Assembly: GCA_903832295.1 (NCBI GenBank)
Contig: CAILAZ010000039.1
Location: 1-64,000 of the forward strand
Length of the DNA: 64,000 bases
Reading direction: 5' to 3'
Source of the DNA: an uncultured Acidobacteriota bacterium
GTDB taxonomy: Bacteria > Acidobacteriota > Terriglobia > Terriglobales > Acidobacteriaceae
The number at the start of each line of letters is the position of its first letter. Positions within the stretch are counted from its first letter, which is position 1. Shown one piece after another: positions 29,392 to 32,710 of this stretch. A program made the translations under genes and the position numbers. Below the pieces are notes generated by a model. The model did no database searches and was not told where the DNA came from. It saw only the letters and a program-made list of their open reading frames with translations.

Positions 29392-30180
29392 ATGACCAGC
29401 GCTCATCTGCCATGCCCTCCCGGCCCCTTTCTGGTCCCCCCACCCATGCCGGAGCCCTCCGCCAGCGAACAGGAGCAGCTCGTCGTCTCCCATCTCGCCG
29501 ACGTCCGGCAGATCGCCCGCTCCATTCTTCGCCGCCTCCCTCCCACCGTGCAGCTCGACGATCTCATCCAGGCTGGCTCCATCGGACTGATCGACGCCGT
29601 CCGGCGCTTCACTCCCGGTGCCACCCTTCCCTTTCGCCAGTACGCCCGCATTCGCATCACCGGCGCTATTTTTGACAGCCTGCGCGAACTCGACTGGGCC
29701 TCGCGATACTTCCGCACCCGCCAGCAAAAGCTCCACAGTGCAACTCGCGCCCTCGAATCCAAGCTCGGACGCACCCCCTCCAGCGACGAAGTCGCCGACC
29801 ACATGGGAATGGACCTCGACACCTTTTACGAGTTCGCTCACGCCATGCAGAATCGCCTGGAGGTGGAGTTTGAGCCGCAGGAGAATAGCGAACACCTCAG
29901 CATCCAGGAGAGTGTCGCCGACGACCCCGAGAAGCGCCCCGACGCGCTCTGCCATCAAAACGAATCTCGCGCGGAACTCCGCAGGTTCATTGCGCGCCTG
30001 CCCGCCCCGGAGGCCAATGTCCTGACCCTCTACTATTTCAAGGAATGGACCATGGCTCGCATCGCGCGCTCCATCGGCAAGACCGAATCCCGCGTCTCCC
30101 AGATTCGCGCCCAGGCCGTGGAGCACCTTCGCGAGCTTCTCGGCGCAAGGGCTCGCGAACTCATTTCCCGGCTGCTCTGA
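29392..30180 (+). CDS. FliA/WhiG-type RNA polymerase sigma factor
   Basis: A 262-aa group 3 sigma factor. Region 2 is QLDDLIQAGSIGLIDAVRRF (near residue 57) with FRQYARIRITGAIFDSLRELDW (written here in parts: FRQYARIRITG, AIFDSLRELDW), the usual sigma-28 core-binding and -10 recognition segment. Region 3 follows (ALESKLGRTPSSDEVADHMG) and region 4 ends the protein (LTLYYFKEWTMARIARSIGK, then TESRVSQIRAQAVEHL). It has a Pro-rich N-terminal extension of about 25 residues. GAGGAT precedes the ATG. No flagellar or chemotaxis gene is visible beside it. It converges on the HPF-sigma fusion gene. Confidence 0.9.
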   Translation: MTSAHLPCPPGPFLVPPPMPEPSASEQEQLVVSHLADVRQIARSILRRLPPTVQLDDLIQAGSIGLIDAVRRFTPGATLPFRQYARIRITGAIFDSLRELDWASRYFRTRQQKLHSATRALESKLGRTPSSDEVADHMGMDLDTFYEFAHAMQNRLEVEFEPQENSEHLSIQESVADDPEKRPDALCHQNESRAELRRFIARLPAPEANVLTLYYFKEWTMARIARSIGKTESRVSQIRAQAVEHLRELLGARARELISRLL

Positions 30181-30192
30181 TTCAACAAAAAC

Positions 30193-30226
30193 GCCGCGGC
30201 TGCAAGGGCGCAGCCACGGCAATTCT
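30193..30226. terminator. Terminator between two sigma-type genes
   Basis: GCCGCGGCTGC pairs with GCAGCCACGGC (one mismatch), loop AAGGGC, then AATTCTT. Located in the 60-nt gap between convergent genes. Confidence 0.65.
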
Positions 30227-30240
30227 TCACAGGTGAGTAA

Positions 30241-31299
30241 TCACGCACTTCGAGGATGAGAAGAGGTTCGGTTCGATACCAGCTTTTGTCTGCGCTCCCC
30301 GGCTGCCACCAGTGAACGCCGCAGGTGTTCTCGCGCCGCGCTCACGTCGGCCTGCACCTGCTCTGTCGTACGCTCTGTGATCGCGGCAATCTCCGCCAGC
30401 CGGAAGCCTTCGAGCGTGAACAGCAGAAACGCTTCGCGCTGATGCACATTCGCTCCCCGCAGAGCGCGCTCCACCATCGCCATCAGTTCTTCGCGGGACG
30501 CATCGTCCTCCGGAGTGCTGCCTCGCCTGTCCGCAATCAGGCTCTCATTCGTCACCCTCTCGTCCGGATGGTAGAACTCCAGCAGTTCCTCGTGGTCCAC
30601 GTCAGCCTCCGAGTGCGCCTCCTCATCATCCAACCGCACGGAACGCGCCGCCGAGTTGAGCTGGTTCCCCAGCCTGTCCATCGCCGAGCGCGACAGCCTG
30701 TACAACCATGGCTCCAGCGCGATCTTCTCCGGCCTCGGCCCGTGCTCGTCCAGTGCGTTGGCAATCGCCTCGTCAATCACCTCTTCAATGCTTATTTCCT
30801 CCAGCCTTCGCTGTCCGCTGTCACGCCGGAAGCGCAGTTCGCGCTCCACGTAACGCCGAAGACGCTCCAGGTTGGCATTCACAAATCCGGCCACGTCCGT
30901 GCTGGAAACCTTCTCCGGCTTCACCACGGCCACCGTAGTCTCAAATTCAACAGTCGGTTCCACCCGCTGCCGCTCCACCCCGCGCACCCGCGGAAAGCGG
31001 TATTGGCTGCGCAGGTGCTCCTTGTGTTTGCGCAACTGCTCCGTCATGTCATCGAAAGCAATCCGGATGGCAGCGTGCAGTGTCTCTGCGCTCGCGCGCG
31101 CCGCCATCTGTCCGGCAGGCAACCGCAGATTCAGCGCCACCACAAAGCCTGACTTCGGCGCCGCCTCAAACAACCCTCGCAGCGAGACCATGTCCGGGTT
31201 GAATACATGCAACCTCGGTCCCAGTTTGTCTATTTGTGTTTGGAGGTACTGCTCAGTCGAAGGAGATTTATCCAGCTTGTACGTAAAATGGACGTTCAT
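30241..31299 (-). CDS. HPF/RaiA domain fused to sigma-factor-like regions 2 and 4
   Basis: A 352-aa two-part protein. Residues 1-100 are an S30AE (HPF/RaiA) ribosome-hibernation domain: MNVHFTYKLDKSPSTEQYLQ, LRLPAGQMAARASAETLHAA, then a basic KHKEHLRSQYRF. Residues about 136-215 resemble sigma region 2 (LRRYVERELRFRR, ISIEEVIDEAIANAL, PWLYRLSRSAMDRL). An acidic linker (221-270) follows. Residues 272-331 match sigma region 4 (HQREAFLLFTLEGFRLAEIA at 286-305, then a helix ending AAREHLRRSL). The length exceeds both HPF (about 100 or 180 aa) and ECF sigma factors (about 190 aa). The S30AE start is the natural N-terminus. It may link ribosome state to transcription; no function is known to me. 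Confidence 0.8.
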   Translation of the reverse strand: MNVHFTYKLDKSPSTEQYLQTQIDKLGPRLHVFNPDMVSLRGLFEAAPKSGFVVALNLRLPAGQMAARASAETLHAAIRIAFDDMTEQLRKHKEHLRSQYRFPRVRGVERQRVEPTVEFETTVAVVKPEKVSSTDVAGFVNANLERLRRYVERELRFRRDSGQRRLEEISIEEVIDEAIANALDEHGPRPEKIALEPWLYRLSRSAMDRLGNQLNSAARSVRLDDEEAHSEADVDHEELLEFYHPDERVTNESLIADRRGSTPEDDASREELMAMVERALRGANVHQREAFLLFTLEGFRLAEIAAITERTTEQVQADVSAAREHLRRSLVAAGERRQKLVSNRTSSHPRSA

Positions 31300-31501
31300 C
31301 TGCTAGCCTCGTTAGATCGATGCCTTATTGCAGGTACGGTCCTGGACTGGTGGAATGTATCACTCCTGTGAAAAGAGGCAAGCAAAATAATCGTGGTTGC
31401 ACGTCTAAGGTAATTCGCCGGACCGCCCCGGGAATTTTCTACCCACTCCGCCGCAACAAAAAGGCCGCCACCTCGAAAGGCAGCGGCCCTCGAATTCCCT
31501 C
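31300..31501. other. Intergenic region between mqnE and the HPF-sigma gene
   Basis: About 200 nt. It holds the promoter of the leftward HPF-sigma gene is not expected here only in part: the gene starts at 31299, so its promoter must lie in this segment. No coding sequence was recognised. The left gene's terminator is at 31455-31490 on the minus strand... see that entry. Confidence 0.45.
31455..31490 (-). terminator. Terminator downstream of mqnE
   Basis: On the minus strand GGCCGC pairs with GCGGCC (31463-31468 with 31483-31488) and is followed by a T-rich run (CTTTTTGTTG). It lies just after the mqnE stop. Confidence 0.65.
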
Positions 31502-32656
31502 TTACACTGCCACGGTCACTGAGTTCTCCGTTCGTGTCACCGCGCGGTACAGCGTATCCCGTTCCACCGGAACCCGCCCTGCAGCCTCAATCAACCGGAT
31601 CAGGTCCTGGCGGCTCAACCCCTGCGGAGTTGTCGCCCCGGCGTCGTGGTAGATCTTCTCCTCCACCACCGTGCCGTCAATGTCATCGGCCCCAAAGCGC
31701 AGCGCAATCTGCGCGATCTTCGGAGTCAGCATCTGCCAGTACGCCTTGATGTGCGGGAAATTATCCAGCATCAGCCGCGCCACCGCAATCTGTTTCAGGT
31801 CCAGCACTCCCGTCGTCCACGGCAGGTGTTGCAGCACCGTATGATCCGGATGGAACGACAATCCGATGAACGTCTGGAATCCCTTGGTCTCATCCTGCAG
31901 CGCTCTCAGCTTCAGCAGGTGATCCACCCGGTCCTCGTCGCCCTCAATGTGTCCGTACAGCATCGTTGCGTTGGACTTGATCCCCAGCAGGTGCGCCTCG
32001 CGCGCCACCTCCAGCCACTCGCTGCCGTCGATCTTGTGGTCGCATATGATTGCCCGCACGCGCTCGGAGAAAATCTCCGCCCCGCCGCCCGGCATCGAAT
32101 CCAGCCCCGCCTCTTTCAGCTTCAGCAGAACCTCGCGGATCGTCATCTTGTTCAGCTTGGCGAAGAAGGAAATCTCCACCATCGTGAAGCCCTTGAGGTG
32201 CACCTGCGGAAACCGCTGCTTCAGCCCGCTCAGCATGTCCAGAAAATATTGCAGCGGCAGATCCGGATGCAGCCCGCCAACGATGTGAAACTCCGTCACC
32301 GCCTCCGTATATCCCGAGGCCGACGATTCGAACACCTCTTCGAGCGCCATCGTGTATGCGCCCTCGGTGCCCTTCTTCCGTCCAAACGCGCATAGCCTGC
32401 ACGCCGCCACGCAAACGTTTGTATGGTTAATGTGGCGGTTCACGTTGAAGTACGCCACGTTGCCATGCATCCGCTCGCGGACGTAGTTCGCCAGCCACCC
32501 CAGCGCCAGCATGTCCGCCGTGCGATAGAGTGCCAGCCCGTCGCTCTCGTCGAGCCGTTCTCCGGCAATTACTTTCTCGTGAATTCGCTTGAGCCGCGCA
32601 TCATCCGTAAAAAACTCGTGACGCGCCGCCGTGATGGGAAACTGAACGTCCGGCAT
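31502..32656 (-). CDS. mqnE: Aminofutalosine synthase MqnE (radical SAM)
   Basis: A 384-aa radical SAM enzyme of the futalosine menaquinone pathway; it converts 3-(1-carboxyvinyloxy)benzoate and SAM to aminofutalosine. NRHINHTNVC leads into the CVAACRLCAFG site (CX3CX2C) near residue 73. EFHIVGGLHP, LKGFTMVEISFFAK, LDSMPGGGAEIF and SNATMLYGHIE are characteristic of MqnE and separate it from MqnC. The ATG at 32656 has a TATCAT hexamer 6 nt upstream on its strand, so it is probably leaderless; a TTG 6 codons upstream is less likely. A UbiA-type prenyltransferase for the same pathway lies at 33755 on the other strand. Confidence 0.93.
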   Translation of the reverse strand: MPDVQFPITAARHEFFTDDARLKRIHEKVIAGERLDESDGLALYRTADMLALGWLANYVRERMHGNVAYFNVNRHINHTNVCVAACRLCAFGRKKGTEGAYTMALEEVFESSASGYTEAVTEFHIVGGLHPDLPLQYFLDMLSGLKQRFPQVHLKGFTMVEISFFAKLNKMTIREVLLKLKEAGLDSMPGGGAEIFSERVRAIICDHKIDGSEWLEVAREAHLLGIKSNATMLYGHIEGDEDRVDHLLKLRALQDETKGFQTFIGLSFHPDHTVLQHLPWTTGVLDLKQIAVARLMLDNFPHIKAYWQMLTPKIAQIALRFGADDIDGTVVEEKIYHDAGATTPQGLSRQDLIRLIEAAGRVPVERDTLYRAVTRTENSVTVAV

Positions 32657-32662
32657 GCTTCC

Positions 32663-32668
32663 ATGATA
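32663..32668 (-). promoter_or_regulatory. -10 hexamer, leaderless start of mqnE
   Basis: TATCAT on the minus strand, 6 nt before the ATG at 32656. No Shine-Dalgarno. Confidence 0.55.
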
Positions 32669-32710
32669 TCGCAACCCGCGCCACCGAACCGTCCCGCCTC
32701 CCTTATTGTT

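Follow-up and report, generated by a model that had tools for sequence, protein, structure and literature searches.

A recurrent fusion of an S30AE ribosome-hibernation domain with a degenerate sigma-factor-like module, with Orf11 of the tLST/LHR heat-resistance island as a member

What might a single protein do that begins as a ribosome hibernation factor and ends as a sigma factor? The question is raised by a gene in a 64,000-nucleotide stretch of DNA (the window) from an uncultured member of the Acidobacteriaceae (contig CAILAZ010000039.1). In a first-pass annotation, the gene was described as an HPF/RaiA-type S30AE domain fused to regions resembling sigma regions 2 and 4. We find a single unbroken open reading frame of 352 amino acids (31299-30241, reverse strand), and the features of the locus are as follows.

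30241..31299, reverse strand: whole gene for an S30AE (HPF/RaiA) domain plus an ECF-sigma-like module, 352 aa, one open reading frame also in relatives
31003..31299, reverse strand: S30AE ribosome-hibernation domain, residues 1-99 (Pfam PF02482, 1.7e-10; predicted model compared with 4hei)
30916..31002, reverse strand: flexible, slightly basic linker, residues 100-128 (net charge +2 in the window protein; pLDDT about 41-49)
30625..30915, reverse strand: sigma region 2-like helices, residues 129-225, region 2.2 Gln replaced by Asp (TIGR02937, model, residue counts)
30514..30624, reverse strand: acidic disordered linker, residues 226-262 (net charge -9; pLDDT mostly about or below 50)
30541..30576, reverse strand: FYHPDERVTNES, residues 242-253, local form of the family signature FYQPDExLxxED (37-protein alignment)
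30262..30513, reverse strand: sigma region 4-like helix-turn-helix, residues 263-346, with fewer basic residues (Pfam r4_2 and PhyR_sigma-like; model helices)
30192..30221, reverse strand: terminator-like hairpin from a scan, 20 nt 3' of the stop codon, with a 13-pair stem and a T-run; suggestive only as a terminator, since chance alone would yield 1.2 hits in the scanned region, where 2 were obtained
31502..32674, reverse strand: upstream mqnC-like gene on the same strand (name from sequence reading), close to the fusion in most of the family relatives read, by synteny

Profile searches recover both halves of the protein. The proposed N-terminal S30AE domain is matched by Pfam Ribosomal_S30AE over residues 9-96 (E 1.7e-10; 41.9 bits against a cut-off of 23.7). 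At the other end, Pfam reports Sigma70_r4_2 over residues 286-326 (26.6 bits, cut-off 25.7) and PhyR_sigma-like over residues 287-324 (28.4 bits, cut-off 27), and NCBIfam TIGR02937 (sigma70-ECF) matches residues 137-329 (46.2 bits, cut-off 42.9). Because the latter match spans this whole interval, the region 2 part is covered as well, and the sigma region 2/4 likeness claimed for residues 130-335 is confirmed. The window protein thus shares its S30AE domain and fold with HPF and RaiA (YfiA), whereas ordinary HPF has no sigma-like tail and long HPF carries a dimerizing C-terminal domain instead. Neither this long-HPF C-terminal domain nor a response-regulator receiver domain appears among the Pfam matches of the window protein up to E 1. 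A frameshift or chimeric assembly, which the annotation had named as grounds for discarding the fusion, is ruled out because relatives at 25-75% identity encode the same fusion in one open reading frame. A chance match to sigma factors is likewise ruled out by TIGR02937, the fold and the conservation.

The fusion recurs widely. Among 41 neighborhood genomes, the window genome included, 33 have some match and 28 encode the fusion, 15 of them in the window's family (f1) and 13 in a sister family (f2); the remaining matches are ordinary sigma factors. An even sample of the Acidobacteriota, which takes in G193 (CP070717.1) and G411 (JALSQX), gave a long match at E <1e-23 in 23 of 396 genomes, with weaker matches again representing ordinary sigma factors. 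We also ran a DNA pattern for the linker core, YQPDExLxxED, against one genome per species. It returned 117 stretches, 75 of which encode an S30AE domain with a sigma-like module in at least six phyla (Alpha-, Gamma- and deltaproteobacterial records, Acidobacteriota, Nitrospirota, Myxococcota, Tectomicrobia and a Caldisericaceae MAG). This breadth is a lower bound, since members that spell the motif differently escape the pattern, as the window's own FYHPDERVTNES does. Another 22 pattern hits lie in other genes (e.g., methionine synthase and amylase, by sequence reading) and were reused as neighborhood controls. Viral contigs yielded one hit, without the fusion. When the sigma-like parts are placed on a tree, the window protein falls in a supported clade of its own family, beside f2 and other Acidobacteriota. 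Current databases name the members sigma factor, FliA or hypothetical, names under which the S30AE half is overlooked, and our search of the literature, confined to open-licence papers, found no description of an S30AE-sigma fusion.

Two side observations concern the relatives of these proteins. Ten sequences with the same QPDE linker and no S30AE domain (L067, L069, L074, L098, L129, L139, L155, L156, L171 and L180), mainly from Alphaproteobacteria, form one clade in the tree of the sigma-like part. The Blastocatellia genome JALSQX encodes two distant fusion paralogues (L073, L082), one adjoining an Hsp20 gene and the other adjoining FtsH and baeRF10 genes.

If the C-terminal half were an ordinary sigma factor, the residues that contact the core enzyme and the promoter should resemble those of true ECF sigma factors. 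We aligned 61 family members with eight true ECFs, a small set that is the only yardstick for the residue losses and charges given here. The region 2.2 glutamine of the core-binding helix is present in 8/8 ECFs and in 0/61 family members, which have Asp (56), Asn (3) or Gly (2) at this position. Basic residues of the recognition helix are also depleted: the first column falls from 100% in ECFs to 39% in the family, the one after it from 88% to 16%. The module averages a net charge of -18.7, compared with -0.1 in the ECFs. These values lend no support to the original suggestion of ordinary binding of the sigma part to -35 DNA or to RNA polymerase. The structural residues of the module are retained in the same alignment, and the sigma2-linker-sigma4 order and core residues are preserved across very distant members. 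In the 37-protein alignment, the most invariant columns are Y243, P245, D246, E247 and E252. As judged from sequence, the family has a sigma-like module without the residues for promoter contact and normal core-enzyme contact, its fold being kept.

To compare folds, we used AlphaFold models of two proteins, the window protein and an alphaproteobacterial member 23% identical to it; both models derive from one shared alignment. The window protein is modeled mostly at pLDDT >90, with an S30AE fold at residues 1-99, sigma2-like helices within 133-225 (133-160, 171-184 and 195-225) and sigma4-like helices within 263-346. Its S30AE elements follow the order beta-alpha-beta-beta-beta-alpha (E2-7, H13-30, E39-47, E51-60, E63-71, H74-99) and superimpose on Vibrio cholerae HPF (4hei) with a Z of 15.4 and an rmsd of 1.2 over 90 residues. 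Both models have a canonical S30AE fold, with Z of about 15 to HPF, and a compact sigma2-sigma4 arrangement, although AlphaFold might pack free sigma domains tightly whatever their function. The best matches of the sigma module in the two models are to EcfG-NepR (5uxx; Z 14.4 and 14.8), with Z of 12.2 and 12.9 to SigW-RsiW and of 11.3 and 11.0 to PhyR-NepR (4qic). Overall, the predicted module most resembles compact ECFs bound to an anti-sigma (EcfG-NepR, SigW-RsiW and CnrH-CnrY) and PhyR, whereas the sigmas of open initiation complexes fit the whole module only at 20-30 A rmsd. PhyR is a close parallel in kind: it uses a degenerate sigma2-sigma4 module for protein binding, and both its profile and its fold match the fusion. 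It differs in having a receiver domain, which the fusion lacks, and in its partner NepR, which is absent from the relatives. A search of 41 relatives for NepR found none (0/41) with a positive Caulobacter control, and we dropped NepR as a candidate partner in Acidobacteriota.

A plasmid protein search with an alphaproteobacterial family member as the query led to mobile stress islands. In Paracoccus, and in shorter islands of Roseomonas, the matches lie among genes for Hsp20, YfdX, FtsH, a ClpK-like ATPase, HdeD, a Clp protease, thioredoxin and a Kef antiporter. The same search reached the tLST/LHR heat-resistance islands of Escherichia coli, Pseudomonas fragi and Acinetobacter; there, the match is a hypothetical gene after hdeD, standing before trx in E. 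coli and P. fragi. This gene product, Orf11, matches the family profile A2 over its full length with 262.5 and 264.7 bits (E about 1e-77); its halves are significant separately (54 bits for the S30AE part and 172 bits for the sigma-like part), and none of the shuffled controls reached the list. On the tree, Orf11 lies inside a gammaproteobacterial fusion clade. From its sequence, we assign Orf11 of tLST to the S30AE-sigma family as a full-length homologue of the window protein, a new identification. It gives a domain identity to an uncharacterized gene of a mobile island relevant to the clinic and to food, matched in 152 of 5,426 complete E. coli genomes.

Previous reports describe Orf11 as <30% identical to anything known (PMC8290217) or list it, under the name ORF10, as hypothetical (PMC7685784). 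Deletion of orf11 is absent from the deletions reported to lower heat or chlorine survival (PMC8407380), and LHR2 carries a disrupted copy (PMC5383660). Proteomics detected one hypothetical LHR protein (PMC7010813), which we infer to be Orf11. Orf11 and the window gene differ in context: the former sits on a mobile island after hdeD, whereas the latter has a chromosomal-type context with no such island, and no tLST-type neighbors occur in the window or in the fetched f1 and f2 loci.

Relatives of Hsp20, ClpK, FtsH or DnaK lie within ~4 kb of the fusion in 12 of 36 non-redundant loci, compared with 0 of the 22 control loci, which are pattern hits without the fusion (p 0.0014). In Burkholderia and Paraburkholderia, the fusion stands between Hsp20 genes and groES-groEL-dnaK. 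Pfam scans of the neighbors in several gammaproteobacterial and acidobacterial loci found no common partner gene. A gene for baeRF10 (baeRF_family10), from the superfamily to which the hibernation factor Balon belongs, follows immediately on the fusion in 13 of the 19 f1 genomes that encode the fusion. Across 25 f1 genomes, 10 have both genes, 5 the fusion only, 1 baeRF10 only and 9 neither, an association with a Fisher p of 0.012, uncorrected for kinship. baeRF10 was first seen beside an unfused relative in Prosthecomicrobium; the unfused sigma-like relatives that it adjoins are L155, L098 and L156, and it adjoins the fusion itself in Acidobacteriota loci, Blastocatellia (G411) included, and in Nitrospinota (L135). 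The window genome has no baeRF10 match, and in the window's genus the gene is not adjacent to the fusion. In a Calditrichota locus (L131, 1706-2548), we observed a sigma-like QPDE protein with no detectable S30AE domain, flanked by baeRF10 and by rhomboid, Clp-protease-like and Hsp20-like genes.

In line with these neighborhoods, Burroughs and Aravind found baeRF-1 genes in persistent operons with HPF genes (PMC6514570), and the genes for Balon have Hsp20, DnaK, HdeD, RaiA and “alternative sigma70 factors” as neighbors (PMC10901736), company that the fusion shares. Balon/baeRF-1 proteins are a separate family with no homology to the fusion; as operon-like neighbors, they are presumably its partners. 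Part of the sigma70 genes beside Balon could belong to the S30AE-sigma family, which suggests that some of these “alternative sigma70 factors” may be hibernation factors themselves.

The S30AE complement of the genomes bears on the function of the N-terminal half. An S30AE domain is encoded in 13 of 14 f2 genomes and always lies within the fusion (13/13, with two copies in one genome); no ordinary HPF was found in these 13 genomes. The fusion replaces ordinary HPF in this family, and its standing as the sole S30AE protein found there argues that a lineage can rely on the S30AE half as its only factor of this kind. In the window's family, by contrast with f2, an ordinary long HPF coexists with the fusion. 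In one f2 genus (g23; L025, L027 and L028), the QPDE linker motif is lost, and the fusion is still the only S30AE protein found.

We propose that the fusion is a stress hibernation factor of the HPF/RaiA family whose degenerate, PhyR-like C-terminal sigma module docks a regulator of transcription, a reading that we consider just on the probable side. By analogy with its families, the intact S30AE domain is expected to bind the 30S decoding channel, so that under stress it would sit in the decoding/mRNA region of the small subunit; in many lineages, it would act jointly with the Balon-type baeRF10 protein from the next gene. The sigma-like module would meanwhile dock either an anti-sigma factor or an RNA polymerase site, and ribosome idling and transcription would be adjusted together. 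Since residues for promoter and core contact are lost and the fold is kept, the sigma-like module is most likely protein-binding. Counting against the proposal are the failure to find NepR in any of the 41 relatives, the lack of a baeRF10 match in the window genome and of an adjacent baeRF10 in its genus, and the absence of orf11 from the deletions reported to lower heat or chlorine resistance. The archaeal HPF/RaiA-CBS protein HibA likewise joins S30AE to a regulatory-type module, but its module is a CBS domain that binds the large subunit, whereas that of the fusion is sigma-like (PMC13324472). A module with no role in transcription, acting as a second ribosome-docking or dimerizing domain in place of the long-HPF C-terminal domain, seems to us rather unlikely. 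Such a role would fit the acidic module poor in DNA-contact residues, the translation and chaperone genes nearby and the lack of a Pfam match to the long-HPF C-terminal domain. Furthermore, because the f2 fusion is the only S30AE protein, its new tail stands at the position of the long-HPF tail. However, the sigma2-linker-sigma4 order and core residues kept in distant members exceed the needs of a bare spacer, and the same linker motif also occurs in a clade of unfused proteins.

A working alternative sigma factor, held or released by idle ribosomes through its S30AE domain and then directing RNA polymerase to stress promoters, is improbable in our view. The TIGR02937 score above cut-off, the NCBI annotation of relatives as sigma-70 family sigma factors, the linkage with stress genes and the PE and L.D elements of its linker, which resemble those of true ECFs, all favor it; yet the region 2.2 glutamine is missing in 61/61 members, the recognition helix is depleted of basic residues, the module is strongly acidic, and we identified no promoter or regulon. 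A further alternative is a dual hibernation factor, one chain that would park both the ribosome and core RNA polymerase, with its invariant acidic linker in an RNA-binding channel, and so silence the two machines or hold them together. No part of the family is more invariant than the linker motif, and its position corresponds to that of the sigma linker, which in ECF structures lies in the polymerase cleft. Rsd and RMF put transcription and translation to rest jointly in E. coli (PMC6904343). Nevertheless, the core-binding region 2.2 residue is changed in all members and some f2 members have a degenerate linker motif, and we regard this dual role as improbable as well. Together with the part of our preferred reading in which RNA polymerase or a sigma regulator is the partner, the dual role makes up the case for a single-chain coupler, in which S30AE would sit on the ribosome and the sigma module on either polymerase or a regulator of sigma; mobile stress islands would have spread it, and Balon-type factors would be its co-workers. 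This case is doubtful, though a serious possibility, and if true it would physically link ribosome hibernation to transcription control. The fusion makes the joint resting of transcription and translation testable on one protein.

Several local features of the window gene complete the description. The annotation had pointed to a FliA-type sigma gene converging on the fusion across 60 nt. This gene is real (FliA/WhiG-type, 29392-30180, forward strand; TIGR02479, 194.9 bits against a cut-off of 189.6), but synteny places it at that spot in the same genus only, and we dropped it as conserved context and as a partner. Stronger links exist with baeRF10/Balon-type genes, chaperone islands and tLST Orf11. 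The interval that separates the mqnC-like gene from the fusion (31300-31501, reverse strand) contains a GC-rich hairpin with a T-run, visible by eye and absent from the scan list; because the scan omitted it, the limits of the transcription unit are unsure. Elsewhere in the window genome, a long-HPF-like S30AE gene follows an rpoN-like gene (L031, 1492-2085, contig C117), and a short S30AE gene lies between aldolase-like and PPK2-like genes (L032, 1414-1851, contig C35), with the names of these neighbors assigned by reading.
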